Assembly (NCBI GenBank): GCA_029309925.1
Contig: JARKND010000001.1
Coordinates: forward strand, 868,001 to 932,000
Direction of reading: 5' to 3'
DNA: 64,000 nt
DNA from: Fulvivirgaceae bacterium JP3-4
GTDB lineage: Bacteria; Bacteroidota; Bacteroidia; Cytophagales; Cyclobacteriaceae
Shown: positions 7,395 to 62,804 of the stretch, piece by piece
Position numbering within the stretch: position 1 is the first letter of the stretch
Layout of the letters: each line of letters opens with the position of its first letter
Notes under the pieces: generated by a model
The model's database searches: none
What the model saw: the letters and a program-made list of their open reading frames with translations, nothing else
What the model was told of the DNA's origin: nothing
Program-made: the position numbers and the translations under genes

Positions 7395-7400
7395 AGATTT

Positions 7401-7557
7401 TAGTCACTAGTCATTAGTCACTAGTCATTGGGAGTAATCGGGAAATGGAAAAAAGAAAAATGGTAGTGAGGATTAGCTAATCAATTTCGTTTTGCCGTTT
7501 CCTTTTTCCCTCTTTACATATTTCTCCCAGTTACCAGTAACTAATGACTAGTTACTA
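7401..7557. repeat. Long inverted repeat built from 7-base units
   Basis: The left arm (7401-7434) begins with four 7-base units, TAGTCAC/TAGTCAT alternating, then TGGGAG. The right arm (7524-7557) is its reverse complement at 29 of 34 positions and also steps in 7s (ACCAGTA, ACTAATG, ACTAGTT). Between them are purine-rich and pyrimidine-rich halves that can pair further, with a perfect palindrome GATTAGCTAATC (7471-7482) near the centre. The whole 157 bases can fold into one hairpin. It fills the gap between lpxD and the HD hydrolase gene. Confidence 0.8.
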
Positions 7558-7559
7558 TC

Positions 7560-8786
7560 TTACAAAGATACGTTTTTAGGCCAGCACAGATAGTTTTTTT
7601 TAACGATTTTGGTGAGCGCTTTGATGTTTGGCAGGTCCGATGCCTGAGCAATATCAAGCAAGTCACCGTGCTTTGTCAGAATGTTGATCTTCTGTCCCTC
7701 GGCATAAGCTTCGTTCGATACCATCCCATATGAAAACAGATAACTAGATTCCGCTCGCAGTGTACGAAATTCCCTGCTTACAGCGGTTCGTATGCGATCG
7801 ATAGATAGTTTCTTTATCGGCTCGATGCTGAGCAAGATCTTGAAGAGGTTTCGCTGAAGAAGCATTTTCGATAGCGTAGAGAGAATCTTGTCATCGTGGT
7901 CTTTCCATAGCTTGATTGCTCCCCAGATGTCATGATCGTCCAGCTGCCCGAAGGCCAGCAGTGCCTTTCTGTTTTGCTGAAAGGTCTCGATCGTGAAATT
8001 TTCTTTCAAAAAGAATTGGAGTCCTTGTGACGATGGAACACGTTCGCCTGCCCTCACCAGTGCCTGTGCCCTGCGTATCAGATTGACCAGCATTCGCTCC
8101 GCGCTTACCGAAGCCTTGTGAAGATAAACCTGCCAGTACATAAGCCTTCTCGCATTGAGAAAATGTTCAATACTATAAATACCCTTCTCCTCAACTACGA
8201 GTTGATCTTTATACACATTGAGCATAACAATGATACGTTCGATGCCAATAGTGCCCTCGTCAACTCCCGCAAAAAACGAATCGCGGTTGAGATAATCGAG
8301 CCGGTCGATGTCGAGCTGGCTGGAAACAAGCTGATGAAAGAATTTGCGGTCGTAGCTGTTCCGGAAAATTCGCATCGCCAGTGTCAACGCGCCATTGAAC
8401 TCATCGTTCAGCTCCGACATCAGCAAATAGGAAATGCTTTCGTGCTTCACGCCCTGCAGCAAGGTTTCCTCAAGCGCATGCGAAAAAGGACCATGACCTA
8501 TGTCGTGCAGGAGAATGGCAAGCTGTGAGGCCTCATATTCCTGTTCGGAAACTTCCACGCCTTTAAAGCGCAGATGGTCAAGCACGCGGCCCATCAGATG
8601 CATCGCCCCGAGCGCGTGTTGAAAACGGGTGTGCTGGGCACCCGGGTAGACAAGTTCCGTTAGCCCCAGTTGTTTGATGTGCCGCAGCCGCTGGAAGAAT
8701 GGATGCGAAATGATGTCGAACAGGAGTTCGCTGCGGATGTGAATGAATCCGTAGACAGGGTCGTTGATTATTTTTTTCTTATTCAA
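7560..8786 (-). CDS. HD-superfamily phosphohydrolase
   Basis: The 408-residue protein has the HD-domain signature: RFQHALGAMH near residue 58 and LLHDIGHGPFSHALE near residue 92, which supply the metal-binding His and Asp. It resembles the dNTP triphosphohydrolase-like HD proteins widespread in bacteria; the substrate cannot be told from sequence. The start is TTG at 8786 (MNKKKIINDPVYG), chosen because the product begins as its relatives do. A TATTTTTA sequence at 8816-8823 on the minus strand is a weak promoter candidate. It is divergent from porX. Confidence 0.88.
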   Translation of the reverse strand: MNKKKIINDPVYGFIHIRSELLFDIISHPFFQRLRHIKQLGLTELVYPGAQHTRFQHALGAMHLMGRVLDHLRFKGVEVSEQEYEASQLAILLHDIGHGPFSHALEETLLQGVKHESISYLLMSELNDEFNGALTLAMRIFRNSYDRKFFHQLVSSQLDIDRLDYLNRDSFFAGVDEGTIGIERIIVMLNVYKDQLVVEEKGIYSIEHFLNARRLMYWQVYLHKASVSAERMLVNLIRRAQALVRAGERVPSSQGLQFFLKENFTIETFQQNRKALLAFGQLDDHDIWGAIKLWKDHDDKILSTLSKMLLQRNLFKILLSIEPIKKLSIDRIRTAVSREFRTLRAESSYLFSYGMVSNEAYAEGQKINILTKHGDLLDIAQASDLPNIKALTKIVKKNYLCWPKNVSL

Positions 8787-8966
8787 GTTCTGAGAACAAC
8801 GCTGTTAATTCACCTTAAAAATACAGCTATAAAGTTATTGCCGACCAATATTAACAGTTTTGAAACTTTTACCCGAATTCAACTAATGGACATATTATGC
8901 TTTGAATCGCTGAACCAAACCACTGCCCGAAACGTGATTATTGAGTAAATTGACGAAAATTAAGCT

Positions 8967-10523
8967 ATGCAACGCTACAGTATACTTTGGGCAGACGATG
9001 AAATCGACCTTTTGAAACCCCACATCATGTTTCTTGAACAGCGAGGTTATGATATCACGCCTGTCAACAACGGTGCTGAAGCAGTCGAGCTCTCAGATGA
9101 GAAAAATTTTGATGTTGTCTTCCTTGATGAGAATATGCCGGGTATGTCCGGTCTGGAGGCCCTGAGCCAGATCAAGAATAACAAGCCGAACCTGCCTGTC
9201 GTAATGATCACAAAGAACGAAGAGGAGCAGATCATGGAAGAAGCGATTGGTTCCAAGATTGCCGATTACCTGATCAAGCCGCTCAACCCGAGCCAAATCC
9301 TGTTGTCGATCAAGAAGATCCTCGACAACAAGCGACTGGTAATCGAGAAGACGAACCTGAACTACCAGCAGGAGTTCAGAAAGATAAGTATGGCTTTCCA
9401 GGATGTGATGAACCACGCACAATGGGCGGAGATCTATAAAAAGCTGGTGTACTGGGAGCTGCAGATGGATGACAACCAGGAGATGGCCGAAGTCCTCGAC
9501 ATGCAGAAAACGGAAGCCAATGCCAACTTTGCGAAGTTTGTGATCAGAAACTACGATGCGTGGCTGAATGACCCGAAAGCAGAAAGGCCGTTGCTTTCCC
9601 ATCAGATCATGAAGCGCAAGGTTTTTCCGGAGCTCGGAAAACGCAAACCAGTCTTTGTGGTGCTCATTGACAACCTTCGTTTCGATCAGTGGAAAGTGAT
9701 CGAGCCCATCGTGAGTGAATATTTTAACATCGAGCAGGAAGATCATTATTATTCGATCCTCCCAACGACTACGGCATACGCACGGAACGCAATCTTCTCA
9801 GGTCAGCTTCCGTCTGAGATGGCCAAAAGTCATCCAGAGTTGTGGGTTGGTGAAGACGAAGACGAGGGTAAGAACAATTTCGAGCAGGAGTTCCTCGATA
9901 AGCAGTTGCGCAGAAATAACCTGCAGGTGAAGATGTCATATCACAAGATCAAAAACATGGAAGAGGGTAGAAACCTTTCCGATACGGTGAACAACCTCTT
10001 CAAAAACGACCTCAATGTTATCGTCTACAACTTCGTTGATATGCTATCGCATGCACGGACGGATATGGCGATGATCCGCGAGCTCGCCCCGGACGAATCT
10101 GCCTATCGTTCGATCACCCGTTCATGGTTCCTTCATTCTCCCTTGTTCGATATTCTGAAAAAAATTGCCGAAAAAGATGTTCGGGTTGTCATCACTACCG
10201 ACCACGGAACTGTGCGCGTCAAGCGGCCTTTCAAAATTGTAGGCGATAAAACGGTCAATACCAACCTGCGGTACAAGCAAGGAAAGAATCTGGGCTACGA
10301 AGGGGATAAGGTAATGCAGGTACCGAAGCCCGAGCGGCTTTTTTTGCCTAAAATGAATGTCTCAACGTCTTATGTATTTGCCACGGAGGATCAGTTCTTC
10401 GCTTATCCGAACAACTATAACTACTATGTTAACTTCTATAAAGACACTTTTCAGCACGGTGGCGTGAGCATGGAAGAGATGATCATTCCTATAATTTTCT
10501 TAAATTCGAAGAATGTGGTCTGA
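8967..10523 (+). CDS. porX: Type IX secretion response regulator PorX (receiver + PglZ domain)
   Basis: PorX is the response regulator that, with the kinase PorY, controls type IX secretion and gliding genes. Residues 1-120 are a receiver domain with acidic residues D10-D11 and the phosphorylated Asp at D54 (VVFLDENMPG). A helical linker leads to a PglZ domain of the alkaline phosphatase superfamily (about 200-515), with metal and nucleophile motifs in VVLIDNLRFDQW, LPTTTAYARN and VITTDHGT. The 518 residues match characterised PorX proteins, whose PglZ domain hydrolyses phosphodiesters. No kinase gene adjoins it. It overlaps tsaE by 11 bases. Confidence 0.94.
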   Translation: MQRYSILWADDEIDLLKPHIMFLEQRGYDITPVNNGAEAVELSDEKNFDVVFLDENMPGMSGLEALSQIKNNKPNLPVVMITKNEEEQIMEEAIGSKIADYLIKPLNPSQILLSIKKILDNKRLVIEKTNLNYQQEFRKISMAFQDVMNHAQWAEIYKKLVYWELQMDDNQEMAEVLDMQKTEANANFAKFVIRNYDAWLNDPKAERPLLSHQIMKRKVFPELGKRKPVFVVLIDNLRFDQWKVIEPIVSEYFNIEQEDHYYSILPTTTAYARNAIFSGQLPSEMAKSHPELWVGEDEDEGKNNFEQEFLDKQLRRNNLQVKMSYHKIKNMEEGRNLSDTVNNLFKNDLNVIVYNFVDMLSHARTDMAMIRELAPDESAYRSITRSWFLHSPLFDILKKIAEKDVRVVITTDHGTVRVKRPFKIVGDKTVNTNLRYKQGKNLGYEGDKVMQVPKPERLFLPKMNVSTSYVFATEDQFFAYPNNYNYYVNFYKDTFQHGGVSMEEMIIPIIFLNSKNVV

Positions 10524-10959
10524 GGATGGCGGTTTGGTCTTCCATGAAGCCAGCCAAAGCGACTTGCTTGAAATTGCCCGAACATTCCTGCAGAAAGCCG
10601 GTGACAAGAGGATCTGGCTTTTGAAAGGTGAAATGGGCTCAGGAAAAACAACATTTATCAAGGTAATGGGCGATGCTCTTGGCGTTACTGACCACATGAG
10701 CAGTCCGACTTTTTCTATTGTGAACGAGTACCTTGCCAGACATGACGAGCGGGTCTACCATTTTGACTTTTACAGGATAAAAAACGAAGCGGAAGCTTAT
10801 GATATCGGAACAGAAGAATATTTTTACTCCGGGAATTATTGTTTCATTGAATGGCCGGAAAAAATTCCCTCATTGTTGCCGGCTGAACGAGTTGAAGTGA
10901 TCATTACACCAGAAAATCAAACGCATAGAACTTTAGCCCTTTCTGTTCATGACAGATAA
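10513..10959 (+). CDS. tsaE: tRNA threonylcarbamoyladenosine synthesis ATPase TsaE
   Basis: TsaE is the ATPase that supports TsaB-TsaD in making t6A37 on tRNAs that read ANN codons. The 148-residue product has the P-loop GEMGSGKTT (residues 39-47), the SSPTFSIVNEY segment, a conserved HFDFYR motif and the C-terminal FIEWPEK motif. It overlaps porX upstream and ald downstream by 11 bases each, so the three genes form a tightly coupled operon. Confidence 0.94.
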   Translation: MWSEDGGLVFHEASQSDLLEIARTFLQKAGDKRIWLLKGEMGSGKTTFIKVMGDALGVTDHMSSPTFSIVNEYLARHDERVYHFDFYRIKNEAEAYDIGTEEYFYSGNYCFIEWPEKIPSLLPAERVEVIITPENQTHRTLALSVHDR

Positions 10960-12175
10960 GAAGAAAACCGGATTTGAAGCGCTTGCCACCAAGACCAGCC
11001 TGTACCCACAGGAGCAGTTGCAGCGAGTCAGCACGGGAAAACACTCATTTTTTATTGGTCTGCCCAAAGAAATATCACTGCAGGAAAACAGGATCAGCCT
11101 CACACCAGACGCGGTGGCTTTGTTGGTGAACAACGGTCACGAGGTATGGGTCGAGACGAAGGCGGGCATCGGCTCCAAGTTTTCTGACAAGCTTTACAGC
11201 GATGCAGGAGCAAAGATTGTGTATTCCGCCCAGGAAGTTTACAAAGCGGAAGTCATCTTAAAGATTGAACCGCCAACAGTGGAGGAGATCGAGATGATGC
11301 GCCCAGGCCAGGCGTTGATCTCTGCCATCCAGCTTGGCCATCTCAAAGCCGAATATGTTCAGGCGCTGCTCAAGAAGAAAGTTACAGCGCTGGCGTACGA
11401 GTTCATTGAAGATAAAGTCGGAGGTATGCCGATCATCCGCGCAATGAGCGAAATTGCCGGAAGCACCGTGATGCTGATCGCGTCAGAATGGCTGAGCACG
11501 GCCAACAATGGCAAAGGTGTAATCCTGGGAGGGATAACCGGAGTACCGCCAACAAAAGTGGTGATCATTGGAGCAGGAACAGTGGCCGAGTACGCAGCAC
11601 GCGCTGCCCTGGGGCTTGGCGCTGACGTTCAGATATTTGATAATCATCTGTACAAGCTAAGGCGGGTAAAGCACCTGTTAGGCCAACAGTTGTATACGTC
11701 AACCATCGATACAATAACCCTTAGCGAAACGTTACGCACAGCTGATGTTGTGATAGGAGCCCTGCGCGCTGAAAAAGGCCGCGCACGACATGTCGTCACC
11801 GAAGAAATGGTGAGCAAGATGAAACAGGATTCCCTGATCATCGACCTCAGTATCGACCAGGGCGGATGTATCGAAACTTCGGAAATTACAACGTTGAGCA
11901 AACCTGTCTTCCGCAAGCATGGCGTTATCCATTATTGCGTGCCGAACGTTGCTTCACGCGTAGCGCACACAGCCACGACCGCACTAAGCAACATCTTCAC
12001 GCCAACCATTCTGCGAGCAGCGGAAGAAGGTGGAATTGAAGAGATGATCTTCACCCACAAATGGTTTATGAAAGGCGTCTATACCTATAAAGGCGGCCTT
12101 ACCAAAGAGCACGTGGCGAAAAAGTTTGGATTGAAGTATAAGAATATAGATCTGTTGATTGCTGCAAGGTTTTAA
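10949..12175 (+). CDS. ald: Alanine dehydrogenase
   Basis: This NAD-dependent enzyme converts L-alanine to pyruvate and ammonia, or the reverse. The 408 residues have a Bacteroidota-type extension of about 35 residues before the usual start region (GLPKEISLQENRISLTP). The dinucleotide-binding motif is VVIIGAGTVAEYAARAALGLGADV near residue 205, and the product-side motif SIDQGGCIETS follows. It is the last gene of the porX-tsaE-ald operon. No terminator is obvious before the toxin-antitoxin operator. Confidence 0.92.
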   Translation: MTDKKKTGFEALATKTSLYPQEQLQRVSTGKHSFFIGLPKEISLQENRISLTPDAVALLVNNGHEVWVETKAGIGSKFSDKLYSDAGAKIVYSAQEVYKAEVILKIEPPTVEEIEMMRPGQALISAIQLGHLKAEYVQALLKKKVTALAYEFIEDKVGGMPIIRAMSEIAGSTVMLIASEWLSTANNGKGVILGGITGVPPTKVVIIGAGTVAEYAARAALGLGADVQIFDNHLYKLRRVKHLLGQQLYTSTIDTITLSETLRTADVVIGALRAEKGRARHVVTEEMVSKMKQDSLIIDLSIDQGGCIETSEITTLSKPVFRKHGVIHYCVPNVASRVAHTATTALSNIFTPTILRAAEEGGIEEMIFTHKWFMKGVYTYKGGLTKEHVAKKFGLKYKNIDLLIAARF

Positions 12176-12182
12176 AAGATTA

Positions 12183-12215
12183 GTACAACGTTTTGTACGT
12201 TTTTACGTACATTTG
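12183..12215 (+). promoter_or_regulatory. Two overlapping palindromes (operator) and -7 box of the yefM-yoeB-like module
   Basis: Two perfect inverted repeats overlap: GTACAA-CGTT-TTGTAC (12183-12198) and TGTACGT-TTTT-ACGTACA (12194-12211). The TGTAC half-sites resemble the TGTACA core bound by YefM-YoeB in E. coli. TACATTTG (12208-12215) fits the -7 box TAnnTTTG and overlaps the second palindrome, so a bound antitoxin would cover the promoter. No TTTG sits at the usual distance upstream. The antitoxin ATG is only 8 bases after the box. Confidence 0.7.
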
Positions 12216-12222
12216 ACATATA

Positions 12223-12474
12223 ATGAAAACCGCAACTGTAAGCGACTTTAGAGCTAATTTGAAAGAGCACCTTGAATCAATCAAAAACGATCAGGATATT
12301 TTGATTATTTCGGGCTCTAAGAAGAGCGATTTTGTCGTTTTAACGTTGGAGCAGTTTGAATCGATGGAAGAGACCGCGCATTTACTGTCCTCCCCCGCAA
12401 ATGCAGCTCGTCTGGCAAAAGGTGTAAAGCAGGCTAGACTAGGGAAAATTTCCTTGAAAAAAATTAAAATTTAA
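12223..12474 (+). CDS. Antitoxin of the YefM/Phd family
   Basis: The 83-residue protein fits the YefM/Phd antitoxin family. The N-terminal half (MKTATVSDFRANLKEHLESI) is the dimeric DNA-binding fold and also contains VVLTLEQFESMEET, the conserved centre of the family. The Lys-rich C-terminal tail would wrap the toxin. It should neutralise the YoeB-like toxin encoded 14 bases downstream and repress the operon through the palindromes before its start. Confidence 0.92.
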   Translation: MKTATVSDFRANLKEHLESIKNDQDILIISGSKKSDFVVLTLEQFESMEETAHLLSSPANAARLAKGVKQARLGKISLKKIKI

Positions 12475-12488
12475 CAGCAACTCAATCC

Positions 12489-12755
12489 ATGACAATCGCC
12501 TTTACCGAAACGGGCTGGCAGGATTATGAGTATTGGCGAAAAAGTGATGAAGGGACGATCCAGAAAATCCACGACCTCATTAAAGACATAAGCCGGGAAC
12601 CCTTCAAGGGGTTGGGAAAGCCCGAACCACTTCGCGGCAATCTTGCTGGTTTTTGGTCAAGACGGATAACAGCTGAGCATCGCATCGTCTACTGCGTCAG
12701 CGGGACCAGGCCAAATCAGATGATCACAATCATCCAATTACGCTACCATTACTGA
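12489..12755 (+). CDS. yoeB: YoeB/Txe-family mRNA interferase toxin
   Basis: YoeB toxins are RelE-fold ribonucleases that cut mRNA in the ribosomal A site. The 88 residues show the family pattern: FTETGWQDYEYW at the start, the conserved E46, R65 in EHRIVY, and the C-terminal RYHY in which H87 and Y88 match the catalytic H83 and Y84 of E. coli YoeB. All key residues are present, so the toxin should be active. It is convergent with valS, with 6 bases between the stops. Confidence 0.94.
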   Translation: MTIAFTETGWQDYEYWRKSDEGTIQKIHDLIKDISREPFKGLGKPEPLRGNLAGFWSRRITAEHRIVYCVSGTRPNQMITIIQLRYHY

Positions 12756-12761
12756 CACTTC

Positions 12762-15398
12762 TTACGCCAACCTTGCGAGTGACTCTTCCAGCGATTTAAT
12801 CTTCGCCTCGGCATCAGCTTTTTTCTTGCGTTCGTTCTCTAACACCTGGGGAGGTGCTCCTGAAACGAATTTTTCATTCGACAACTTCTTCTCAACGCTG
12901 GCTAAAAATCCTTTCTGATAATCAATGTCTTTGAGGATTGTCTCGCGTTCTTTTGCAGTATCTACCTTTCCCTCCATCGGAATAAAGAACTCCGTAGACT
13001 TCACCACGAATGGTGTTGAGGGCGTAGCGGGTGCTTCCTTGACGAATGTCACTTCACTCACATTCGACAATTTCTTAACGATGCCCCAGAAAGATCTGAT
13101 CGGTGCATGCTCACCGTTCTTCACCAGAAGCTTCATTGCTTCTTTTGGAGAAATTCCCTTGGCATTGCGCGTGTTCCGGACCTCGGTGATCACTTCAAAA
13201 CTGGTCACCGCTTCATCCAGAATTTTCTGATCAAATTGTCCCGGCTGCGGAGCAGGTGCAACAATGATTGCGTCTTTCCCTCCGCGATCCTTCAACTCAT
13301 GCCACAGCTCTTCGGTGATAAATGGCATGAACGGATGAAGTGCCTTCAATAATGTCTCAAAGAAAACAATAGTCTGTTCATATGTGGTCTGATCGATCGG
13401 TTTGCCAAATTCCGGCTTAACCATCTCCAGGTACCACGAACAGAAGTCGTCCCACACGAGTTTGTATATCGCGTGAAGCGCATCAGAAATTCTAAACTTG
13501 CTGAAGTGGTCTTCAATTTCTATCAGCGATTGATTCAGCTGCGACTGAAACCACTGGATCGCAATCTTGTTTTCTTCAGGCTGACTTGCTCCCGTGGTCC
13601 AGCCTTTCACAAGACGAAAAGCATTCCAGATCTTGTTTGCAAAATTTCTCCCCTGCTCGATCAGTTTCTCATCGTAAAGCAAATCATTTCCGGCAGGCGC
13701 AGAGAACAGCATCCCCGTTCGCACCGCGTCTGCACCATGGGTGGCAATGAGGTCGAGCGGATCGGGCGAGTTACCCAACGACTTAGACATCTTTCGTCCT
13801 TGCTTGTCGCGTACGATTCCCGTGAGATAGACATTGCTGAATGGTTTTTCACCACGGTACTCATACCCCGCAATGATCATCCTCGCTACCCAGAAGAACA
13901 AGATCTCAGGAGCAGTAACCAGGTCGTTTGTTGGATAGTAATAATTGAGGTCTTTGTTTCCTTTGTTGTATGGAGCTTTGAAAACAGTGGTATCGAATAC
14001 CGCTATCGGCCAGAGCCAGCTCGAAAACCACGTATCCATCACATCCGGATCTTGCGTCAGCTTTTGGCTTTTGGAATTTGGATATTGGCGCTTGTATTTT
14101 TCCTGAGCCTCTTGCTCTGTTTTGGCAACGACAAAATTTCCCTCTTCATCAAACCAAGCTGGGATTCGGTGACCCCACCACAGCTGACGCGAAATGCACC
14201 AGTCGCGTACGTTCGACATCCAATGGTTGTACGTGTTCTTGAATTTCGGTGGCAGAAGCTGGATCGTGTCGTCCATCACATGCTTGTGTGCAGGCCGGGT
14301 GATCTCGCCCATTGTCAAAAACCATTGCAGCGACAAGCGCGGCTCAATCACTGCATCAGTTCGTTCTGAAAACCCAACATGGCTAGTGTAGTCTTCGACT
14401 TTTGCAAGATGGTCTTCTGCTTCAAGCATCTTTGCAATTTTCTTACGTGCAACAAAACGATCTTCACCCACGAGTATCTGCGCATTTGAATTGAGTGTCG
14501 CGTCCTCATTGAGAATATCGATCACCGGAAGGTTGTGTTTCTTTCCGAGTTCGTTGTCGTTCATGTCGTGGGCAGGTGTTACTTTTAAACAGCCCGTACC
14601 GAAATCCATAGCGACATAGTCGTCTTCAATGATTGGGATTGCGCGGTTGATCAGCGGGATCAGCACTTTCTTCCCCTTCAGGTGTTTGTAACGGTCGTCA
14701 TTCGGATTAACGCAGATGGCAGTATCCGCCATAATCGTTTCGGGGCGAACGGTCGCGATCGTTACAAAGTCGTTCGAGCCCTCGATTTTGTATTTGATGT
14801 AATACAGCTTCGAGGCAACGTCTTTGTGAATCACTTCATCGTCTGAGAGCGCGGTTTTACCAACCGGGTCCCAGTTGACCATCCGAAGGCCCCTGTAAAT
14901 ATTTCCTTTGTTATAGAGATCGATGAAAACGTCAATGACGGCATCGTAGTAGTCGGGATCCATCGTGAACGTAGTGCGATCCCAGTCGCATGAGGCACCG
15001 AGTTTCTTTAACTGTTCGAGGATAATCCCACCGTATTTCTCTTTCCACTCCCACGCGTATTTTAGAAAGTCTTCACGCGAGAGATCGGATTTTTTGATTC
15101 CCCGCTCGCGCAGCATGGCAACAACTTTGGCTTCGGTTGCAATAGACGCGTGGTCGGTACCGGGTACCCAGCATGCCTCTTTTCCCTGCATTCGCGCCCT
15201 GCGCACAAGAATATCCTGAATGGTATTGTTGAGCATGTGGCCCATGTGCAATACCCCGGTTACGTTTGGCGGGGGAATCACAATACAGAAAGGCTCTTTA
15301 TCCGGGTTGGGTTCCGAATGAAAAAAACCATGCTGTAGCCAGTAGCTATACCATTTGTTCTCTACTTCCTGTGGGTTGTACTTGGTTGATAAAGACAT
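12762..15398 (-). CDS. valS: Valyl-tRNA synthetase
   Basis: This class I synthetase charges tRNA-Val. With the start at 15398 it has 878 residues. The HIGH motif is HMGH at residues 51-54, and [10 protein letters not shown] is the KMSKS loop. Anticodon-binding and C-terminal coiled-coil regions complete it. A longer frame (to 15470) exists, but a clear Shine-Dalgarno at 15406-15411 supports the inner start. Residues about 437-446 ([10 protein letters not shown]) are encoded by a 7-base periodic array and look like an insertion in a variable stretch before [18 protein letters not shown]. Confidence 0.96.
14063..14090 (-). repeat. 7-base periodic array inside valS
   Basis: On the plus strand four consecutive units read TTTGGCT, TTTGGAA, TTTGGAT, ATTGGCG. 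On the coding strand this gives CCAAAT/CCAAAA-like steps, very close to the intergenic arrays at 59211-59346. It encodes residues from R437 of ValRS. Confidence 0.75.
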
Positions 15399-15405
15399 GC
15401 TGAAA

Positions 15406-15411
15406 CTCCTT
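15406..15411 (-). promoter_or_regulatory. Shine-Dalgarno sequence of valS
   Basis: The minus strand reads AAGGAG, 7 bases before the ATG at 15398. Such a strong site is rare among the other genes here, and it decides the valS start. Confidence 0.65.
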
Positions 15412-15440
15412 AAAACACCCCTTTTAGGGCAATGAAGGGG

Positions 15441-15448
15441 CAAAAATA
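15441..15448 (-). promoter_or_regulatory. Candidate -7 box of valS
   Basis: The minus strand reads TATTTTTG, a full match to TAnnTTTG, about 43 bases before the start. No TTTG is found at the normal 19-base distance, so the promoter call is tentative. Confidence 0.35.
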
Positions 15449-15534
15449 AAGAAATTCGAACAAAAGCCACTTTTTACTTACACTCCAATCCAACCGGCTT
15501 GCTGTATTCGTAAATTGTACAAACTAAGGAAGAA

Positions 15535-15620
15535 TTTAAGATTTGAGATTTTAGATTTTAGATTCTAGAATCAATCCAAAGTCCGAAATCTTAAATCTTA
15601 AATCTTGAATCTTAAATCAA
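15535..15620. repeat. Inverted repeat of 7-base units (AAATCTT family)
   Basis: The left arm has five units: TTTAAGA, TTTGAGA, TTTTAGA, TTTTAGA, TTCTAGA (15535-15569). The right arm has AAATCTT three times, then GAATCTT and AAATCAA (15586-15620). The arms are nearly reverse complements, with a loop of about 16 bases. The element ends 4 bases before the MFS gene start. Confidence 0.85.
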
Positions 15621-15624
15621 TTTA

Positions 15625-16761: not shown

Positions 16762-16766
16762 AATTC

Positions 16767-16850
16767 AGGTTCAAGGTTCAAGGTTTAAGGTTTAAGGTTT
16801 AAGGTTTAAGGGTTCGTGTTCCGTGTTTCGTGTTCAGGGGTTCGGGTTGC
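16767..16850. repeat. Twelve consecutive 7-base units
   Basis: From 16767 the sequence steps in exact 7s without a break: AGGTTCA twice, AGGTTTA four times, AGGGTTC, GTGTTCC, GTGTTTC, GTGTTCA, GGGGTTC, GGGTTGC. The unit drifts gradually along the array while the period stays fixed. It lies between the convergent MFS and rsmF-like genes. Confidence 0.9.
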
Positions 16851-16867
16851 GGTAGACTTGTTGAAAG

Positions 16868-18214: not shown

Positions 18215-18288
18215 GATGCAAGTTAAAATTTCTATTCGGCTTGCTGCCTTGGGTCGAAAAATATAGGTTTACCCTTTCTTTTTCCAAT

Positions 18289-19557: not shown

Positions 19558-19561
19558 CCTT

Positions 19562-20383: not shown

Positions 20384-20525
20384 TTATAACATCAGACTGC
20401 CACTCCGCGAAATAGACCTGTTTTCCGTTGTAAGCAGTCCAATCCTTGTTCTCTCGCGTCCAACTAGCCAGACGTTGAGTTACTCTGCTTTTACTTTGTA
20501 AATAAAGGCAAACGGTAATCGCGTC

Positions 20526-22394: not shown

Positions 22395-22404
22395 TGTCAA
22401 TTGC

Positions 22405-23529: not shown

Positions 23530-23662
23530 TTCTGTTCTGAGTGAAGGGGCTTTTTTCACTCTCAGCTAATTTATCGACAAGGAATTCGCTGTGATAGCGT
23601 GTGAACTTCACGCCATATAATCTGAATGTCAGAGGATATGAATTCCTCAGAAACTGGGGAGT

Positions 23663-32960: not shown

Positions 32961-34325
32961 TCAGAATTGTTTGATGATTTGATCGATAGTGAGTTTCTGC
33001 TGTTCACCGTTAGTCATGTTCTTAAACGCCAGCGCTCCGGTACTCACTTCTTCAGAGCCAATAACGATGGTGAACGGAATCATCTTCTTATTCGCAAAGT
33101 CAAGTTGTTTTTTGATTTTGGAAAGATCCGGGTAAATCTCTGAAGCAATGCCTGCCTGACGGAGTTTTGAAAGCACACCAAGTCCGTAACGAAAACTTTC
33201 ATCATCGAAATAGCAAATCAGAACTTTGGAGGAAACCTGCGCATCCTTCGGGAAAAGATTCAATTCTTCCATGGCATCGTAAATGCGGTCAACGCCAAAA
33301 GAGAATCCCACACCGGAGAGATTTTCCTTATCGCCAAATGCTTTCGTCAGGTTATCGTAGCGCCCACCGCCACTTACGCTTCCTATGCTCACATTGTTGA
33401 TCTTCACTTCGAAAATGCAGCCCGTGTAATAGCTTAAGCCTCGCGCGAGTGCGACATCGAGTTCGACATTGGATTCATCAGAACCGTAATCGCGCAGGAA
33501 ATCAAAAACGAGGCGCAGGTCGCGCAGGCCCTTTTGTCCGGAAGCTATGGTCTCGAATTCCTTAAACAGCACAGCAAGCTTGTTGGTGTTGGAGCCTTTG
33601 ACGTTGAGGAGTTGGAATAACTTCGTCAGTGCATTTTCCGAAAAGTTTTTTTCGCGAAGCTCTTCCTTTACTTTTTCTTCTCCGATCTTGTCAAGCTTGT
33701 CGATGGCAACAAACATCGGTGTTTCATTTCCTGCAGCACCGATTGCTTCTGCAATACCATTCAAAATGCCGCGATGATTTATTTTGATTGTATAATCTGT
33801 AATGCCAAGCCCTTTGAAAACTTCCCTGATCATGAGAATGATCTCGGCTTCGCAGATCAGTGAGTCAGTGCCAACAACGTCAGCATCGCACTGGTAGAAT
33901 TCGCGGTATCTTCCCTTCTGGGGACGATCTGCTCTCCACACGGGTTGGATCTGGCATCGCTTGAATGGAAATGCCACTTCGTTCCGGTTCATGACAACGT
34001 AGCGCGCGAACGGAACTGTCAGATCGTAGCGAAGACCTTTCTCAGAGATATCGAATGTTAACTGTTTCGAGTTTCGTGTTTCGAGTTTGGTGGCATCTGC
34101 ATTCTTGAGGTAGTCGCCCGAGTTCAAAATCTTAAACAAAAGCTGGTCGCCTTCTTCTCCGTATTTTCCGGTCAGCGTAGTGAGGTTCTCCATTGCCGGA
34201 GTTTCAAGGGGCATGAAGCCATATTTTTGAAAGACCTTTCGGATGTTATCAAGAATAAATTGCCGTTTGGCCATTGTTGCCGGGCCGAAGTCACGCGTTC
34301 CTTTTGGTAGAGTTGGCTTGTCCAT
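32961..34325 (-). CDS. hisS: Histidyl-tRNA synthetase
   Basis: This class II synthetase charges tRNA-His. From the ATG at 34325 it has 454 residues, starting MDKPTLPKGTRDFGP. Motif 1 is around FMPLETPAMEN, motif 2 holds RYDLTVPFARYV and QPVWRADRPQKGRYREFYQCDADVVG, and the histidine-specific motif is LDVALARGLSYYTGCIFEV. Residues 79-88 (TKLETRNSKQ) are encoded by a 7-base periodic array in a stretch that varies between homologues. The gene leads an operon with hutH, an unusual pairing. Confidence 0.96.
   Translation of the reverse strand: MDKPTLPKGTRDFGPATMAKRQFILDNIRKVFQKYGFMPLETPAMENLTTLTGKYGEEGDQLLFKILNSGDYLKNADATKLETRNSKQLTFDISEKGLRYDLTVPFARYVVMNRNEVAFPFKRCQIQPVWRADRPQKGRYREFYQCDADVVGTDSLICEAEIILMIREVFKGLGITDYTIKINHRGILNGIAEAIGAAGNETPMFVAIDKLDKIGEEKVKEELREKNFSENALTKLFQLLNVKGSNTNKLAVLFKEFETIASGQKGLRDLRLVFDFLRDYGSDESNVELDVALARGLSYYTGCIFEVKINNVSIGSVSGGGRYDNLTKAFGDKENLSGVGFSFGVDRIYDAMEELNLFPKDAQVSSKVLICYFDDESFRYGLGVLSKLRQAGIASEIYPDLSKIKKQLDFANKKMIPFTIVIGSEEVSTGALAFKNMTNGEQQKLTIDQIIKQF
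34064..34091 (-). repeat. 7-base periodic array inside hisS
   Basis: The plus strand reads GTTTCGA, GTTTCGT, GTTTCGA, GTTTGGT in exact 7-base steps. It resembles the GTGTTTC/GTGTTCC units at 16816-16836. It encodes residues 79-88 of HisRS. Confidence 0.75.
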
Positions 34326-43985: not shown

Positions 43986-44098
43986 TGTGCCAATTGATCA
44001 ATGTGCCAACGTGCCAATGAAGATGCGCTCGGAATACAATCGCGCGAAGCTTTGAAGGTACGCCCATTGGCAGATTGGCACATTAAAACATAACAACG
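43986..44098. repeat. Inverted repeat with an 8-base period
   Basis: The left arm steps in 8s: TGTGCCAA, TTGATCAA, TGTGCCAA, CGTGCCAA (43986-44017). The right arm also steps in 8s: TTGGCAGA, TTGGCACA, TTAAAACA, TAACAACG (44067-44098). The 20 bases at 44000-44019 and 44065-44084 are reverse complements at 18 positions. It lies between the divergent uvrD and DUF3109 genes. Confidence 0.8.
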
Positions 44099-51994: not shown

Positions 51995-52045
51995 ACTTTT
52001 CTAGTTCCTTTCAACTTTTAACCGATTCTTCAGGTTGTAGTTTTT

Positions 52046-52073
52046 TGCCTACAGCCAATTGCCTACTGCCTAC
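52046..52073. repeat. 7-base periodic array (TGCCTAC family)
   Basis: Four units: TGCCTAC, AGCCAAT, TGCCTAC, TGCCTAC. It lies in the 88-base gap between the DUF4159 gene and moxR. Confidence 0.7.
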
Positions 52074-52082
52074 TTTTTCCGG

Positions 52083-52703: not shown

Positions 52704-52772
52704 GATGCAATCTGAAGTTTCTTGTTGAAAAATGGAAGGCGTATTATTCAAGCGGAGCCAAATGATCAAATT

Positions 52773-52821
52773 CCAATAATCAATAATCAATAATCAATAA
52801 TCAATAATCAAATCTCAAACA
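52773..52821. repeat. 7-base tandem array TCAATAA
   Basis: Units in exact 7s: CCAATAA, TCAATAA four times, TCAAATC, TCAAACA. The same order (CCAATAA, TCAATAA/CCAAATC, TCAAA..) recurs at 59211 and 60612. Confidence 0.88.
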
Positions 52822-52883
52822 GAGTATCCGACTCGAATACTAGCGGACGTGCAATTAACCCGATGGCGTTCATTACAATGAAA

Positions 52884-52909
52884 AATCCCCAGTTTTCACA
52901 CCAGGGATT
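52884..52909 (-). terminator. Probable terminator of tldE
   Basis: On the minus strand AATCCC (52904-52909) pairs with GGGATT (52884-52889), followed by TTTTT. The inner stem is imperfect. Confidence 0.5.
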
Positions 52910-52942
52910 AAATCTTAAATTTTAAATCTTAAATATTTACAC
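52908..52942. repeat. 7-base periodic array TTAAATC at the tldE stop
   Basis: Units TTAAATC, TTAAATT, TTAAATC, TTAAATA, TTTACAC. The tldE stop codon (52937-52939) lies inside the last unit. Confidence 0.75.
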
Positions 52943-54253: not shown

Positions 54254-54263
54254 AGAATAAGTT

Positions 54264-54291
54264 GGTTACAGTTTAAGGTTTAAATTGTTCG
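54264..54291. repeat. Short 7-base periodic array (GTTTAAG)
   Basis: Units GGTTACA, GTTTAAG, GTTTAAA, TTGTTCG in the 26-base gap between tldE and tldD and running into the tldD stop. It is similar to the AGGTTTA array at 16767. Weak, because only two units are close. Confidence 0.4.
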
Positions 54292-55920: not shown

Positions 55921-55938
55921 AATTGGGTTGTTTGCTAT

Positions 55939-57615: not shown

Positions 57616-57796
57616 AAACGCCAGCCTTCATCTTTAAAGATATTCAAAAGCCCTTCGAACCGTCAGAAAATAGTATCCTCTGCTATTAGTTTATATGAGT
57701 GGCAATTGAACCGATAGATTTTGTCCTTATCTCCCCCAAATCCAGTTGCAACGGAATAACTACTGGTTAACCGGGTATATATGCTTAAAAACAAAA

Positions 57797-57822
57797 AAAG
57801 GCACTTTTGAAAAAGTGCCTTT
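57797..57822 (-). terminator. Intrinsic terminator of accC
   Basis: AAAGGCACTTTT (57797-57808) pairs with AAAAGTGCCTTT (57811-57822). On the minus strand the stem is followed by a T run. It closes the operon that ends with accC. Confidence 0.9.
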
Positions 57823-57843
57823 GTTATTGATGCAACCGTTGCG

Positions 57844-59196
57844 CTATTTGTTCAACGTTGAAAAATCAAATGACGTTTCCAGGAACTTTGTGGTAAACTT
57901 TCCCGAGCGGAAAGTCGGATTATCCATCAAAGCAATGTGGAATGGGATTGTAGTCTTCACACCTTCAATTACGAACTCCTGAAGGGCGCGTTTCATGCGC
58001 GTGATCACTTCTTCCCGCGACTGACCACTTACTATCAGTTTGGCGATCATCGAGTCATAGTTCGGAGGAATGGTGTAACCGGCATACACGTGGCTGTCAA
58101 TTCTAACACCATGGCCACCCGGCATATGAAGGTTGGTAATTTTTCCAGGAGATGGACGGAAGCCGTTGGCAGGATCTTCTGCATTGATACGGCACTCCAT
58201 TGCAAATAGATTGGGAAAATAGTTCGTGCCTGAGATCGGAACACCGGCAGCGACCTTGATCTGCTCTTTGATAAGATCATAATCCGTCACTTCTTCAGTG
58301 ATTGGGTGCTCTACCTGGATACGCGTGTTCATTTCCATAAAGTAGAACTGTCCATGCTTATCGACAAGAAACTCGATCGTACCTGCGCCTTCATAGTTGA
58401 TAGCCATTGCACCCTTGATCGCAGCTTCTCCCATCTTTTCACGGAGTTCCTGGCTGATGATCGGAGATGGAGTCTCTTCCACAAGTTTCTGATGTCTTCT
58501 CTGGATCGAGCAATCGCGCTCAGACAAGTGACAAACTTTTCCGTACTGATCACCGACTACCTGTATTTCAATATGGCGAGGCTCTTCAACAAATTTTTCG
58601 AGGTAAAGTCCATCGTTCCCGAAGGCAGCACCAGCTTCACGTTTAGCATCATCCCAGGCTTTTTTAAATTCGCCTTCTTCGTTGATGATGCGCATACCTT
58701 TTCCACCACCGCCTGCGGTTGCTTTCACAATCACGGGATAACCGATTTTCTTGGCAAGTTTCATTCCTTCTTCAATAGAAGAAAGCAAGCCATCTGATCC
58801 AGGAATTGTTGGGACACCAGCCTTCTTCATGGTATCCTTTGCGGTGGACTTGTCACCCATCGATTGGATCATTGCAGGAGTAGGGCCAATGAACTTAATC
58901 CCGTATTCATGACAGATTGCAGAGAACTCAGCACGTTCGGACAAGAATCCATACCCAGGATGGATCGCGTCAGCATTGGTGATTTCTGCAGCTGAAATAA
59001 TGCGGGGAATGTTGAGGTAAGAATCTTTGCTTGGCGCATCACCGATACACACCGCTTCGTCAGCGAAGCGCACGTGAAGACTTTCACGATCGGCTGTAGA
59101 GTAAACTGCTACAGTTTTGATGTCCATCTCGCGGCAGGTACGAATGATACGTAACGCAATCTCACCGCGGTTTGCAATTAATATTTTTTTAAACAT
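57844..59196 (-). CDS. accC: Biotin carboxylase of acetyl-CoA carboxylase
   Basis: AccC carboxylates the biotin of BCCP using ATP and bicarbonate. From the ATG at 59196 ([18 protein letters not shown]) it has 450 residues. The ATP-grasp glycine loop is [11 protein letters not shown], and [27 protein letters not shown] and [19 protein letters not shown] are present. A longer frame to 59235 runs into a repeat and is not used. It is the last gene of the operon, with accB 150 bases upstream and a repeat element between. Confidence 0.95.
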
Positions 59197-59210
59197 GACG
59201 TTATTAAATT

Positions 59211-59346
59211 CCAATGACCAATAACCAAATCTCAAATCAAAGGCAGCGGCCTATTGGGTTTTGTTTTCAGGTTCAATTTTTACACGAAACTTCAATTTTA
59301 AACCAACTCCATTTGGAATTTGGTTATTGGAGCCTGGTTATTCTGA
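59211..59346. repeat. Inverted repeat of 7-base units between accB and accC
   Basis: The left arm has CCAATGA, CCAATAA, CCAAATC, TCAAATC (59211-59238). The right arm has TTTGGAA, TTTGGTT, ATTGGAG, CCTGGTT, ATTCTGA (59312-59346), close to the reverse complement of the left. About 73 bases lie between. The element ends at the base before the accB stop codon. Confidence 0.85.
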
Positions 59347-59925
59347 CTAGTCGGGTTCCACAACGAACAACACCTGATCGTATTCAACTGGTGAAGAGTT
59401 CTCTGCCATTACTTTCACGATTGTACCGGAGACCTCTGATTCAATTTCGTTGAACAGTTTCATCGCTTCGATGATACATACAGTCTGGCCTTTTGAAACC
59501 TTGTCTCCAACGGAAACGAATGGTGCAGCTTCCGGTCCTGATGAGCGGTAGAATGTTCCGATCATTGGTGACTTGATGTCAACCGTTTTCTTACCTGACG
59601 CAGACGCGGCCGCACTGGCCTCAGCTCTTGGCGCGGCTTGCGCTTGTGGAGCTTGTTGCTGTACAGGAGCAGACACTTGCGCAGCCATTGGTGCAACAAC
59701 AGGTGTAGATTTGAAAACTTTTTGATCTGGTTCACGCTTTACGTGAAGTTTCAATTGCTGTGTTTCGATATTTACTTCATTCAAGCCTGTCTTGGAAATA
59801 AAATCGATAAGATCTCTGATTTCAGATGTTTTCATTTCGGGTTGGGTTGACGATGCAGATCCGGAAAATGATTTAGCGGACGTTTCCTTTTTCGCTGTTG
59901 GTTTTGACGTACGTGCTTTGCTCAT
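59347..59925 (-). CDS. accB: Biotin carboxyl carrier protein of acetyl-CoA carboxylase
   Basis: AccB carries the biotin that shuttles CO2. The C-terminal 80 residues are the biotinyl domain, with the modified Lys at K156 in [16 protein letters not shown] flexible Ala/Pro/Gln-rich linker (about 75-112) precedes it. The 192 residues include an N-terminal Lys/Ser/Thr-rich extension of 30; a second ATG ([17 protein letters not shown]) would give the usual 162. Only 5 bases separate it from efp. Confidence 0.94.
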
Positions 59926-59930
59926 AAATA

Positions 59931-60494
59931 TTATTTTACACGCTCGATATATTCTCCCGTGCGGGTGTCAATTTTAACTTTCTCGCCAGTGTTGATGAAC
60001 AATGGTACGCGTACTTCCGCACCGTTTTCCAATGTTGCTGGCTTCAGTGTTCTGGTGGCAGTATCGCCTGCAAGACCAGGCTCTGTGTAGGTTATTTCCA
60101 TGACCACGTGAGCAGGTGCTTCTGCAGTGATCGGGTTTGTTCCATTCTCAAATGCAATCAGAAGTGTAACGCCTTCTTTTACATAAGCTGCCGAAAATCC
60201 AAGCAACGCTTTGTCGAGATAGATCTGATCGAACGTTTCGTTGTCCATACAAACGAGGCTATCACCATCGGAGTACAGGTATTGCATTTCTTTAGTTTCT
60301 ACGCGAAGGATCTCCACTTCATCGCCAGGACGGAAACGGTTTTCTGCAACTTTTCCATTGCGAACGTTCCTCATTTTGATCTGATAGAATGCGCGAAGGT
60401 TTCCAGGTGTTCTGTGCAGAAGTTCTTCAACCTGCACAACTTCACCGTTGTAGCGCATGTAATTTCCTTTACTGAGATCCGATACGGTTGCCAT
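59931..60494 (-). CDS. efp: Translation elongation factor P
   Basis: EF-P rescues ribosomes stalled at proline runs. The 187 residues show the three-domain pattern, from [21 protein letters not shown] to [18 protein letters not shown]. The tip loop reads RTPGNLRAF, so the position that is modified Lys34 in E. coli is Asn32 here, and no lysine is in the loop. It therefore probably works unmodified or by another modification. It lies directly upstream of accB. Confidence 0.95.
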
Positions 60495-60611
60495 AAAATT
60501 TTAAAAACGACTTTAAGTTACAAATACCTCAATTAAATACAAGTTGTAATGGATGGAAGCGCTCGGGTTGAACATTGGTTTAACTTTTCAGATGAAGTCA
60601 TTGAATAAATT

Positions 60612-60709
60612 CCAATAATCAATAACCAAATCTCAAAACCGTTGCGATCACTAATTCACTAATTCCTAGTGCCTACTTCCTAATAACCATTGACTAGTTA
60701 CTATTATAT
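60612..60709. repeat. Fourteen in-phase 7-base units reaching into fabH
   Basis: From 60612 the sequence stays in 7-base phase: CCAATAA, TCAATAA, CCAAATC, TCAAAAC, two poor units, ATTCACT, AATTCCT, AGTGCCT, ACTTCCT, AATAACC, ATTGACT, AGTTACT, ATTATAT. The last three overlap the fabH stop and final codons (60694 onward). It shares units with 59211 and, at its right end, with 7540-7560. Confidence 0.85.
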
Positions 60710-61692
60710 GCCCACTTGACATATACTGCTCCCCATGTGAATCCGCCGCCAAAGGCTGCCATGATGATGTTGTCGCCCTTCTTCAGTTTCTTTTCATAAT
60801 CCCAGAGCAGCAGCGGAATCGTGCCGGCAGTTGTGTTGCCGTAGCGCTCGATATTCATCATCACCTTATTTTCACCAATGCCCACGCGATTCGCGGTTGC
60901 ATCAATAATTCTTTTGTTCGCCTGGTGGGGTGCAAGCCACGAAATGGTATCAGCCGTGAGGTTGTTGCGCTCTGCGATCTGGGCAGAAACATCCGCCATG
61001 TTTGTGACGGCAAACTTAAACACCGCTGAGCCTTCCTGATATACAAAGTGCTGGCGCGCATTCACCGTCTCCAGGGATGCAGGTCTTCTGCTTCCACCGG
61101 CTTTCATGTGGAGGTAAGATTCTCCAGAGCCATCGCTCTTTAGAATAGAGTCCATCACCCCAACATCTTCTGTTGTCGGTTCAAGCAAAACTGCTCCTGC
61201 GCCATCGCCAAAAATGATACAGGTTGTGCGGTCTGTGTAATCGAGGATCGCTGACATTTTATCGCCACCGATCACGATAACTTTTTTATACATACCCGAC
61301 TCAATGAAACTTGCTCCTGTTGTTAATCCGAAAAGAAATCCTGAGCAGGCTGCGCCCATGTCGTAACTCCACGCGTTTGTGGCGCCAACGGCAGTGGCTA
61401 CAATGTTTGCCGTTGCCGGGAAAGTCATATCTGCAGTAACCGTGGCGAAGATGATCAGGTCAATCTCCTTCGGGTCGACTTTTGTTTTTGCCAGAAGATC
61501 CTTAACAGCATTGATTCCGAGAACTGATACGCCCAGATTGTCTCCCTTTAAAATCCTTCTCTCCTTTATCCCCGTGCGGGTGGTTATCCATTCGTCTGTC
61601 GTTTCTACCATTGTTTCGAGTTCTTTGTTGGTAAGCACGTAGTCCGGTACATAACCTCCAACGCCCGTAATGGCAGCTCTTACTTTTTTCAT
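60694..61692 (-). CDS. fabH: 3-oxoacyl-ACP synthase III
   Basis: FabH starts fatty acid synthesis by joining acetyl-CoA and malonyl-ACP. The 332 residues carry the catalytic Cys C116 ([11 protein letters not shown]), His in APHQANKRI and Asn in [12 protein letters not shown]. The protein ends [16 protein letters not shown] plus NSN; those last codons and the stop lie in a 7-base repeat array. The order rpmF-fabH-efp-accB-accC is typical of Bacteroidota. plsX, often between rpmF and fabH elsewhere, is absent. Confidence 0.95.
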
Positions 61693-61750
61693 AGTTTATT
61701 TTCTTCGGTCTTGATCGGCAGTTTGCTTGCAGATCATATAAATGAAAAAT

Positions 61751-61774
61751 GCCCGGATTCACCCGAGCAATTTT
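61751..61774. terminator. Weak hairpin between rpmF and fabH
   Basis: GCCCGG (61751-61756) pairs with CCGAGC (61763-61768, with one G-U pair), with T and A runs on both sides. On the minus strand it could attenuate transcription between rpmF and fabH. Confidence 0.5.
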
Positions 61775-61866
61775 TTATATCTCAGCTAACTAAACCACGG
61801 CAGGATTTTTCCCGCTGCAGGGTTTAGCAGAACACACATGTTTGGTGGATGTGTGGCGGCAATGCA

Positions 61867-62058
61867 TTATGCAAGTACTTCTTTTTCCATCACCACTTTA
61901 CCCTTGAAGTAAAGTTTACCCTCGTGCCAGTATGCACGGTGTGGAAGGTGATGTTCACCCGTTGTAGCATCAACCGCTAGTTCTTTAGCAAATGCTTTAT
62001 AGTGTGTTCTTCTCTTATCCCTTCGGGTTTTCGAGGTTTTTCGTTTCGGATTTGGCAT
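61867..62058 (-). CDS. rpmF: Ribosomal protein bL32
   Basis: The 63-residue product begins [21 protein letters not shown], the bL32 signature. The zinc ribbon normally formed by two Cys pairs in the second half is missing; the segment reads [19 protein letters not shown] with no Cys, so it is the zinc-free form. It lies 12 bases downstream of the DUF177 gene, the usual pairing. Confidence 0.94.
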
Positions 62059-62070
62059 ATCAACAACAGT

Positions 62071-62592
62071 TTATTTTAACTTCTTCAATTGCTCCCAGCG
62101 TGGGTCAATATCCTGCTCACCTTCGTCACCGGAGTCGCTTCCGGAACTATAGATGATCTTTCCCTCAGCTTCTTCATCGAGCTCAAGCTCGCCTTCGTAG
62201 CGCGGATGAAGCTTTTTCATCGGGATCGCAAGCGCAATGAACTCATACATATATTGTCCGAGTTCAAGGTGATCTGAGTCGCGGTGAATCATGATAATTT
62301 CATCACTCAACTCCTCGTTCGCATCGCCATATTTGAAGATGACTTTCTTATCAATCTTCAGCGGATGCTGAAACGGGTCCAGACTGCGGTCGCAGATCAG
62401 CTTTACCTTGCCACTTATTTCAAACCGGGCTTCGATCATGGTTTCGTGCTTGTCAAGCGTAACCACTGCCTTTAAATCACCTTCGGAAACAATTCCGTCT
62501 CCGTAATGCCTGAAGAACTCATCACCGATATGAAAGTCATATTGATGCTGCTTATTGCTCAGGCCAATGATATTGATCTTAAAATCCTTCAT
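62071..62592 (-). CDS. DUF177 (YceD-like) protein
   Basis: The 173-residue protein matches DUF177: FKINIIGLSNKQHQYDFHIGDEFF, a central VKLICDRSLDPFQHPL, and the acidic end (DEEAEGKIIYSSGSDSGDEGEQDIDPRWEQLKKLK). YceD is linked to 23S rRNA maturation in plants and bacteria and is almost always next to rpmF, as here. Confidence 0.9.
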   Translation of the reverse strand: MKDFKINIIGLSNKQHQYDFHIGDEFFRHYGDGIVSEGDLKAVVTLDKHETMIEARFEISGKVKLICDRSLDPFQHPLKIDKKVIFKYGDANEELSDEIIMIHRDSDHLELGQYMYEFIALAIPMKKLHPRYEGELELDEEAEGKIIYSSGSDSGDEGEQDIDPRWEQLKKLK

Positions 62593-62729
62593 TCCAACTC
62601 AACACCAGGCTTTAAAAAATAAGTCGGCAAATTTAGAAAAATTGGTTGGAAACCGCAAAAGAATTCAAAAAATGAGGGTTTGAGCGTTAAAAAGCCGGAT
62701 TCCGGGAGTGTAGACGTTCATTTTTATAG

Positions 62730-62804
62730 CCACTAAACTCCAAGACTCAAAGAAACACGAAGAATCTGGCTGAACTTTGTGTGCTGAATCTTATGGCTTT
62801 AAAG
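62730..62804. repeat. Imperfect inverted repeat with 7-base steps
   Basis: The left part CCACTAA, ACTCCAA, GACTCAA (62730-62750) and the right part up to TATGGCTTTAAAG (62774-62804) are partly reverse complementary (AGCCA, TAA, CAAAG blocks). The 7-base phase is weaker here than elsewhere. The gap upstream (62593-62729) holds nothing I recognise. Confidence 0.45.

Follow-up and report, generated by a model that had tools for sequence, protein, structure and literature searches.

Short arrays that advance in exact steps of seven bases are scattered through the window analysed here (the whole stretch of 64,000 nucleotides, from a genome of 5.8 Mb), and the repeated unit differs from one site to the next. 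What holds the step fixed when the sequence is free to change? The preliminary description of this DNA had defined the arrays by period rather than by sequence and had proposed a copying mechanism with a fixed step. Having followed them through the genome and through relatives (Cyclobacteriaceae and other Bacteroidota), we arrive at another answer. The arrays are probably the arms of palindromic elements resembling REP/RAYT systems, with gene-bearing and gene-less copies, which would be owned by genes of the S23 (23S_rRNA_IVP) family and related to the intervening sequences of rRNA.

Step length and location of the arrays

A local lag scan of the window (match +1, mismatch -2, cut-off score >=12) returned six arrays at lag 7, which also appear at multiples of seven, and a single array at lag 9. 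At score >=10, the 827 kb of genome sequence analysed contain 89 arrays at lag 7 and 14 at lag 8, of which 83 and all 14, respectively, are intergenic by approximate gene calls made for the present analysis. Other lags were nearly empty, with two arrays at lag 5, five at lag 9 (none intergenic), and one each at lags 10 and 11; shuffled sequence yielded approximately zero arrays at score >=11. The intergenic autocorrelation is highest at lag 7 (z 17), followed by lags 14 and 21 (z 12), lag 8 (z 9.6), and lag 6 (z 8.2). Thus, exact seven-base stepping, first described for the window, is a genome-wide property, and comparison with shuffled controls gives the excess at lag 7 that was anticipated. 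Among 80 named Bacteroidota loci (1.58 Mb), lag 7 again led with 53 arrays, ahead of lag 8 (12), lag 6 (nine), and lag 10 (one), and lag 5 had none; a 50-kb stretch of E. coli contained zero lag-7 arrays.

Within the window, the heptad step originally listed for a dozen sites is clear at six of them. The first is a hairpin whose left arm (7401..7459), composed of (TAGTCAY)n followed by TTGGGAG..GGAAA (lag 7, p < 0.004; inverted repeat score 32), is matched by a right arm at 7498..7557, seen in the inverted repeat and lag tests. The same two tests identify the arms at 15534..15564 (unit GATTTNA) and 15587..15617. The other clear arrays are GGTTCAA/GGTTTAA shading into GTTTCGT at 16767..16834 (lag-7 score 37), TGCCTAC at 52046..52074 (lag test), CAATAAT at 52774..52811 (lag-7 score 31), and TTAAATC at 52908..52934 (lag scan). 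The step is weak (p 0.01-0.02) at 54264, 59211, and 60612. These correspond to a short GGTTTAA array at 54264..54285 (lag-7 p 0.01), a hairpin CCAATAACCAAATC at 59218..59330 with arms at 59218-59237 and 59311-59330 (inverted repeat score 16), and degenerate arms of CCAATAATCAATAACC and CTAATTC/CTAGTGC units at 60585..60684, the last site scoring better at lag 8. The stepping in eights claimed for 43986 holds (p 0.007) and belongs to a hairpin AATGTGCC at 44000..44084, with arms at 44000-44019 and 44065-44084 and an inverted repeat score of 16. Site 62730 has no lag-7 signal at all (p7 = 1) and leaves the class. No Rfam 15 family matched the window above its gathering score.

The location of nearly all arrays between genes is borne out by the intergenic share of the lag-7 arrays, with the reservation that two of the listed sites, 14063 and 34064, lie inside the valyl- and histidyl-tRNA synthetase genes. 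These are a weak heptad array at 14060..14089 on the minus strand (family test, P 0.01) and the heptad GTTTCGA at 34064..34092, also on the minus strand (lag scan). The valyl-tRNA synthetase frame of Mucilaginibacter gilvus likewise contains heptad arms (L098:10601-10691), and the orthologous stretch of M. pankratovii (L100) has a completely different sequence. A perfect heptamer array of ACCCTAA, the unit of plant telomeres, was observed in Pedobacter terrae (L065:1592-1634).

Arrays as arms of inverted repeats

The arrays pair. Forty-three of 346 sampled spacers contain a strong inverted repeat (score >=18) as compared to none after shuffling, and the arms have period 7 in 30 and period 8 in seven of these cases. 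Conversely, for 54 of the 83 intergenic lag-7 arrays, an inverted partner was located within 300 bp (control, four), so that the original remark that several arrays form inverted arms was an understatement. The median arm length is 4.4 units in hairpins and 4.6 units at S23 genes, with a spread of two to nine units. In one spacer, the arms are better conserved than the loop. Between tandem genes, the elements start at a median of 3 nt past the upstream stop codon (null expectation, 31).

The two arms of an element change together. Of 68 variants that occur in a single unit only, 40 recur in the other arm in register and 11 when it is displaced by one unit (±7), and the arm-to-arm identity is 0.86 in register and 0.75 when shifted by seven. 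In tandem gene contexts, mismatches between arms are not biased towards G.U on the transcribed strand (39 vs. 36), and we take this as a sign of a process acting at the DNA level; on the same count, selection for an RNA hairpin was rejected. A role in providing stop codons was considered and dismissed, as stop trinucleotides are only modestly in excess (217 vs. ~177) and equally so on both strands, which we take to be a side effect.

S23 genes between periodic arms

A gene is associated with these arms. All 12 PF05635 (S23) genes of this genome are flanked by an inverted repeat scoring at least 12, and 11 of them by one scoring at least 16. The arms have period 7 at nine genes and 8 at two, and were read as 6 at one, and their unit families differ. 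In a sample of 593 comparison genes, only six had a flank of at least 16. S23 and GxxExxY genes account for one each of these six, so that five of 592 genes other than S23 are flanked in this way. In other genomes, 36 of 55 S23 genes reach 16 (19 score below) and 46 of 55 read as period 7, as compared to one of 116 control ORFs with a flank of at least 16 in the same loci. The start codon of each S23 gene was picked for the best flank score, which introduces a slight bias towards S23, not of the observed size. The arrays adjoin these genes closely, before the start codon and after the stop codon. The encoded protein is a four-helix bundle of about 115-140 amino acids.

Plasmids provide further examples, as nearly all of 14 plasmid S23 loci, including those of Azospirillum and Gemmatirosa, have inverted arms with a step of seven or eight bases; most plasmid-borne relatives are cyanobacterial. 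On three cyanobacterial plasmids (L314, L318, L323), S23 genes with periodic arms are situated between cas genes, and IVP genes have been noted within cas loci in one report (PMC3936711).

Gene-bearing copies come and go between close species. One Hymenobacter species (G105) has an S23/IVP gene between periodic arms in a spacer that lacks it in three relatives, and at another spacer an S23 element is present in one Hymenobacter species and missing in three others. This pattern, together with the dispersal of unit families described below, suggests that the elements are mobile. Measured against MITEs and IS-derived elements, which have terminal inverted repeats with target-site duplications and a known transposase, the present elements have inverted arms but unclear boundaries. 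Neither a duplicated target site nor a precise insertion boundary was seen, transposition was not observed, and no transposase was identified. The S23 fold is not known to have nuclease or transposase activity, and movement may therefore depend on the host or on a further gene. Local array density rises only weakly with the number of S23 genes (rho 0.26, p 0.09, n = 44); one congener (G001) has six S23 genes yet few arrays.

Unit families and their cognate genes

The arrays of a genome fall into families. A search for the AAGCTNC family with AAGCTNCAAGCTNCAAGC gave 81 matches in this genome, none in two congeners, and at most one in each of the other relatives searched. Triplets of AGATTTN occur 109 times here, again not in the congeners, and are also found in a few other genera. 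Slippage acting locus by locus does not predict families common to many loci of one genome.

These families match the arms of S23 genes in the same genome, and period is therefore not the only property that defines the class, as the preliminary description had it. Of 44 dispersed hairpins, 43 score higher against the arms of S23 genes from their own genome than against the best-matching of 12 foreign S23 genes (mean 18.7 vs. 11.5, p 2e-13), and the sole exception (L017:15009) belongs by eye to a GxxExxY family. All 13 sites of the preliminary description have their best family in their own genome at P <= 0.015 against shuffles. Thus, the hairpin at 7401 belongs with gene L305 (score 21 vs. 12 for the next family, P < 0.005), the arrays at 16767 and 54264 with L304 (23 vs. 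14 for the former), the period-8 hairpin at 44000..44084 with L308 (27 vs. 14), the array at 52046 with L303 (24 vs. 11), and those at 52773, 59211, and 60612 with L310. The best own S23 family for the arms at 15534..15564 is that of L309, the array at 52908 is ambiguous between L309 and L304 (P 0.015), and the heptad in the histidyl-tRNA synthetase gene matches L304 weakly. The dispersed hairpins of the window have no S23 ORF. For the families AGATTTN, AAAGCTN, GCCAATA, and CCAANNN, the fit to the own S23 gene is moderate. When genomes are compared, S23 proteins that resemble each other also tend to carry similar units (Mantel r 0.23, P 0.003).

We considered a fixed core of four to five bases plus a free spacer as a general rule for the unit and rejected it, since constant columns are only weakly non-uniform (376 vs. 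363 ± 5.6); double differences are spread evenly over the positions. The pattern does fit single families such as AAGCTNC. In this family, the variable base N is T in 66, G in 83, A in 51, and C in 8 of 208 units, a count partly biased by the seed pattern, and the order of variants is shuffled between arms and loci.

A second type of gene, GxxExxY (TIGR04256), has strong inverted arms on its flanks in four of the five cases identified (scores 21-42), and the period of these arms is mostly other than 7. Such arms were noted at L137:13430-13820, L123:7910-8291, L085:2210-2621, L272:10752-11175, and 62723-62803 in the window; the inverted repeats are of the CACCAAGACACGAAG, CCGCAGAGGCGCAGAGG, and CGCTGATTTCGTGATTT types, and gene-less copies occur elsewhere. 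These genes and copies apparently constitute a parallel element system, which accounts for the off-period site 62730. Its inverted arms at 62723..62803, of the type AGCCACTAAACTCCAAGACTCAAAG, are assigned to the GxxExxY gene and fall outside the heptad class in the lag and family tests.

The palindromes are dispersed and extragenic, and the genome holds five RAYT (Y1_Tnp) genes (L193-L197), as would be expected of REP elements moved by these Y1 transposases. We checked RAYT ownership of the heptad hairpins at all five. Around each gene lie REP-like palindromes that are peculiar to it and lack a period, several of which form long tandem arrays, and a weak heptad array was found near only one, which makes ownership by RAYT genes extremely improbable.

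Turnover of units between loci and species

Gain and loss of units in sevens, which the preliminary description had proposed to look for between close strains, was observed between tandem copies and between species. At one locus (L173; G000:C1:1016800-1019300), seven tandem copies hold two to four AAGCTNC units each, and the array length differs by one unit between two Mucilaginibacter species. Unit identity is 0.79 for neighbours and drops to 0.60 with distance along the array; neighbouring units are thus the most alike, as local duplication predicts. The repeat at L173 is itself a series of seven tandem 127/134-bp units beside a tRNA-like sequence, each with part of the 3' end of that sequence. 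Whole elements have also been amplified in tandem at L131:741-1700, where approximately nine copies of a ~105-bp CCAATGA/TCAAATTCC hairpin are found.

In spacers shared by related species, the hairpin is retained and the period is usually retained, while the unit is altered on both arms together. In nine Hymenobacter species, the lpxC-lpxA spacer carries hairpins in all and the lpxD-lpxC spacer in most, with various units (CAATGAA, AATTAAT, ATTAAAA; AGTTGNC, GAAGCTA, GTTAGCT). The arms of one species pair with each other better than arms swapped between species (22.4 vs. 16.7, p 0.002; 19.7 vs. 10.6, p 0.012); the same test in Mucilaginibacter was not significant (p 0.13). Within the arms of orthologous Hymenobacter spacers, identity at lag 7 is 0.69 and at other lags 0.14-0.40, so that the period is held while the sequence drifts, as first noticed within single arrays, in other species as well. 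In a pair of Hymenobacter genomes whose lpxC coding sequences are 94.7% identical, the arms on both sides are entirely different. When four species were compared over 300 kb, period-7 hairpin sites stayed at 7 and period-8 sites mostly at 8, and some orthologous spacers switched family entirely or held an unrelated palindrome.

These comparisons bear on the possibility that S23 proteins are regulators of host functions and the hairpins their putative binding sites in transcripts or spacers, i.e., that we observe many parallel regulons rather than selfish elements. It agrees with the pairing of each gene with one family, the position of elements immediately past upstream stop codons, the closeness of arrays to S23 start and stop codons, and the single spacer where arms surpass the loop in conservation. 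A regulon is harder to reconcile with families that are species-specific and change at a site between orthologues, with gene-bearing copies present or absent between species, with arrays inside essential reading frames, and with a sense strand free of G.U bias, and we consider it unlikely.

The proposed element and its mechanism

In its full form, the S23-owned element would be an S23/23S_rRNA_IVP gene placed between inverted arrays with units of seven or, less often, eight bases, and the majority of genomic copies would be arms alone around a short loop. Each S23 gene would have one unit family, and gene-less copies would track one of the genome's own S23 genes, just as REP palindromes track their RAYT gene. 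The S23 protein is predicted to recognise its own arms and to be needed for their spread or upkeep. The step might be set by a five-membered ring in which each protomer takes one 7- or 8-base unit, an arm having four to five units. If the ring fixes the step, the spacing would remain constant even as the protein and the sequence that it recognises change together. Ring proteins of the TRAP type are a precedent in which protomer spacing sets the spacing of bound repeats; the parallel to S23 and its arms is offered as an analogy only. The PDB entries 2gsc and 2rld, both S23 relatives, have five chains each, and Xcc0516 is a ring-shaped homopentamer according to work cited in PMC4990558. The number of units would change by slippage, whole units at a time, and the complementarity of the two arms would be maintained at the DNA level.

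The copying mechanism with a fixed step thus survives in part. The retained period, the gain and loss in sevens, and the similarity of neighbours agree with it, and it may describe unit turnover; it is not the whole story, as the families match S23 arms, and copying with a fixed step would not by itself lead one to expect a linked gene. In its strong form, the arrays would be products of local replication slippage with a seven-base step preferred by the polymerase, template switching between arms would keep the hairpins, and the S23 genes would be bystanders. Gain and loss in sevens, the decay of similarity along arrays, and copying from arm to arm fit this scheme, as does the lead of period 7 across Bacteroidota and, as reported in PMC4679880, across prokaryotes. 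It does not account for unit families at tens of loci per genome that are missing in congeners, for hairpins matching S23 arms of the same genome, for S23 genes flanked by arms far above controls, or for the E. coli stretch devoid of lag-7 arrays. We therefore give slippage alone the same low probability as the regulon hypothesis and retain the S23-owned element as the probable explanation.

Comparison with known systems

The closest relatives of the elements are the rRNA intervening sequences (IVS) with an S23p ORF known from Leptospira, Coxiella, Xanthomonas, and Brucella, which are excised from the transcript by RNase III. In these, a gene of the same family is enclosed by an inverted-repeat stem. 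PMC4990558 describes the 23S rRNA IVS of Coxiella as a selfish element with an S23 ORF, an inverted stem of 28 bp, and heptamers repeated a variable number of times among strains. The gene family, the inverted stem, and the heptameric repeats are therefore already known. The placement of an S23p/IVP ORF inside an inverted stem recurs here (12/12 own genes at >=12, 36/55 foreign genes at >=16). Unlike the IVS, the present elements are located in intergenic spacers or protein genes rather than in a helix of 23S rRNA, comprise many families, and mostly occur as gene-less copies. This dispersed, multi-family, genome-wide form outside rRNA appears to be new.

The likeness to REP/REPIN palindromes and RAYT consists in dispersed extragenic palindromes, a single cognate gene in the same genome as owner of each family, and gene-less copies that outnumber the gene, with S23 in the place of RAYT. 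The differences are that the owner is a four-helix-bundle protein rather than a Y1/HUH transposase, that the arms are periodic in seven or eight bases, and that these palindromes are unrelated to the five RAYT genes of this genome, with no RAYT transposase beside a cognate heptad palindrome.

Tandem direct heptamers in intergenic DNA, as found here, are the hallmark of the cyanobacterial STRR and of the TAACTGA repeats of Beggiatoaceae, cyanobacteria, and Bacteroidetes, which overlap in taxa with the present arrays; the TCAGTTA unit also occurs at one of our loci (L097). The latter repeats are reported from five Bacteroidetes in PMC4679880, so that the earlier remark that no named counterpart was known in Bacteroidota was too strong. 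Both types have been described as direct repeats without a gene, whereas the present arrays are arms with a candidate S23 owner, and the TAACTGA paper makes no mention of S23 or four-helix proteins. As cited in PMC4679880, Mrazek (2007) found heptanucleotides to be the commonest class of long repeats with units of 5-11 bases in many prokaryotes and attributed them to polymerase slippage. Slippage of this kind may be the source of unit gain and loss; the repeats themselves, unlike the elements reported here, lack inverted arms, families, and a gene. A search of the open-access literature, with subscription journals outside its scope, found no paper linking heptamer repeats to S23 proteins.

Heptamer repeats of cyanobacteria, Beggiatoaceae, and Bacteroidota have long been on record with neither an owner nor an explanation for their seven-base unit, and proteins of the S23/four-helix-bundle type, though common, have no known function. 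Linking the two offers both a testable role, provides a candidate owner for a class of repeats known for decades, and turns the question "why seven?" into a direct question of binding. Many spacer hairpins of Bacteroidota would be accounted for by S23-linked elements. More broadly, and more tentatively than for the present genome, since we hold this extension to be possible but somewhat short of an even chance, S23/IVP genes may be the mark of a class of selfish palindromic elements that is widespread in bacteria. Each protomer of the pentameric ring would read a single unit of seven bases (eight in some lines), and the elements would preserve a spacing in place of a sequence. Such a class would include STRR, the TAACTGA repeats, and the rRNA intervening sequences, the last being one branch of a much larger assembly of elements.
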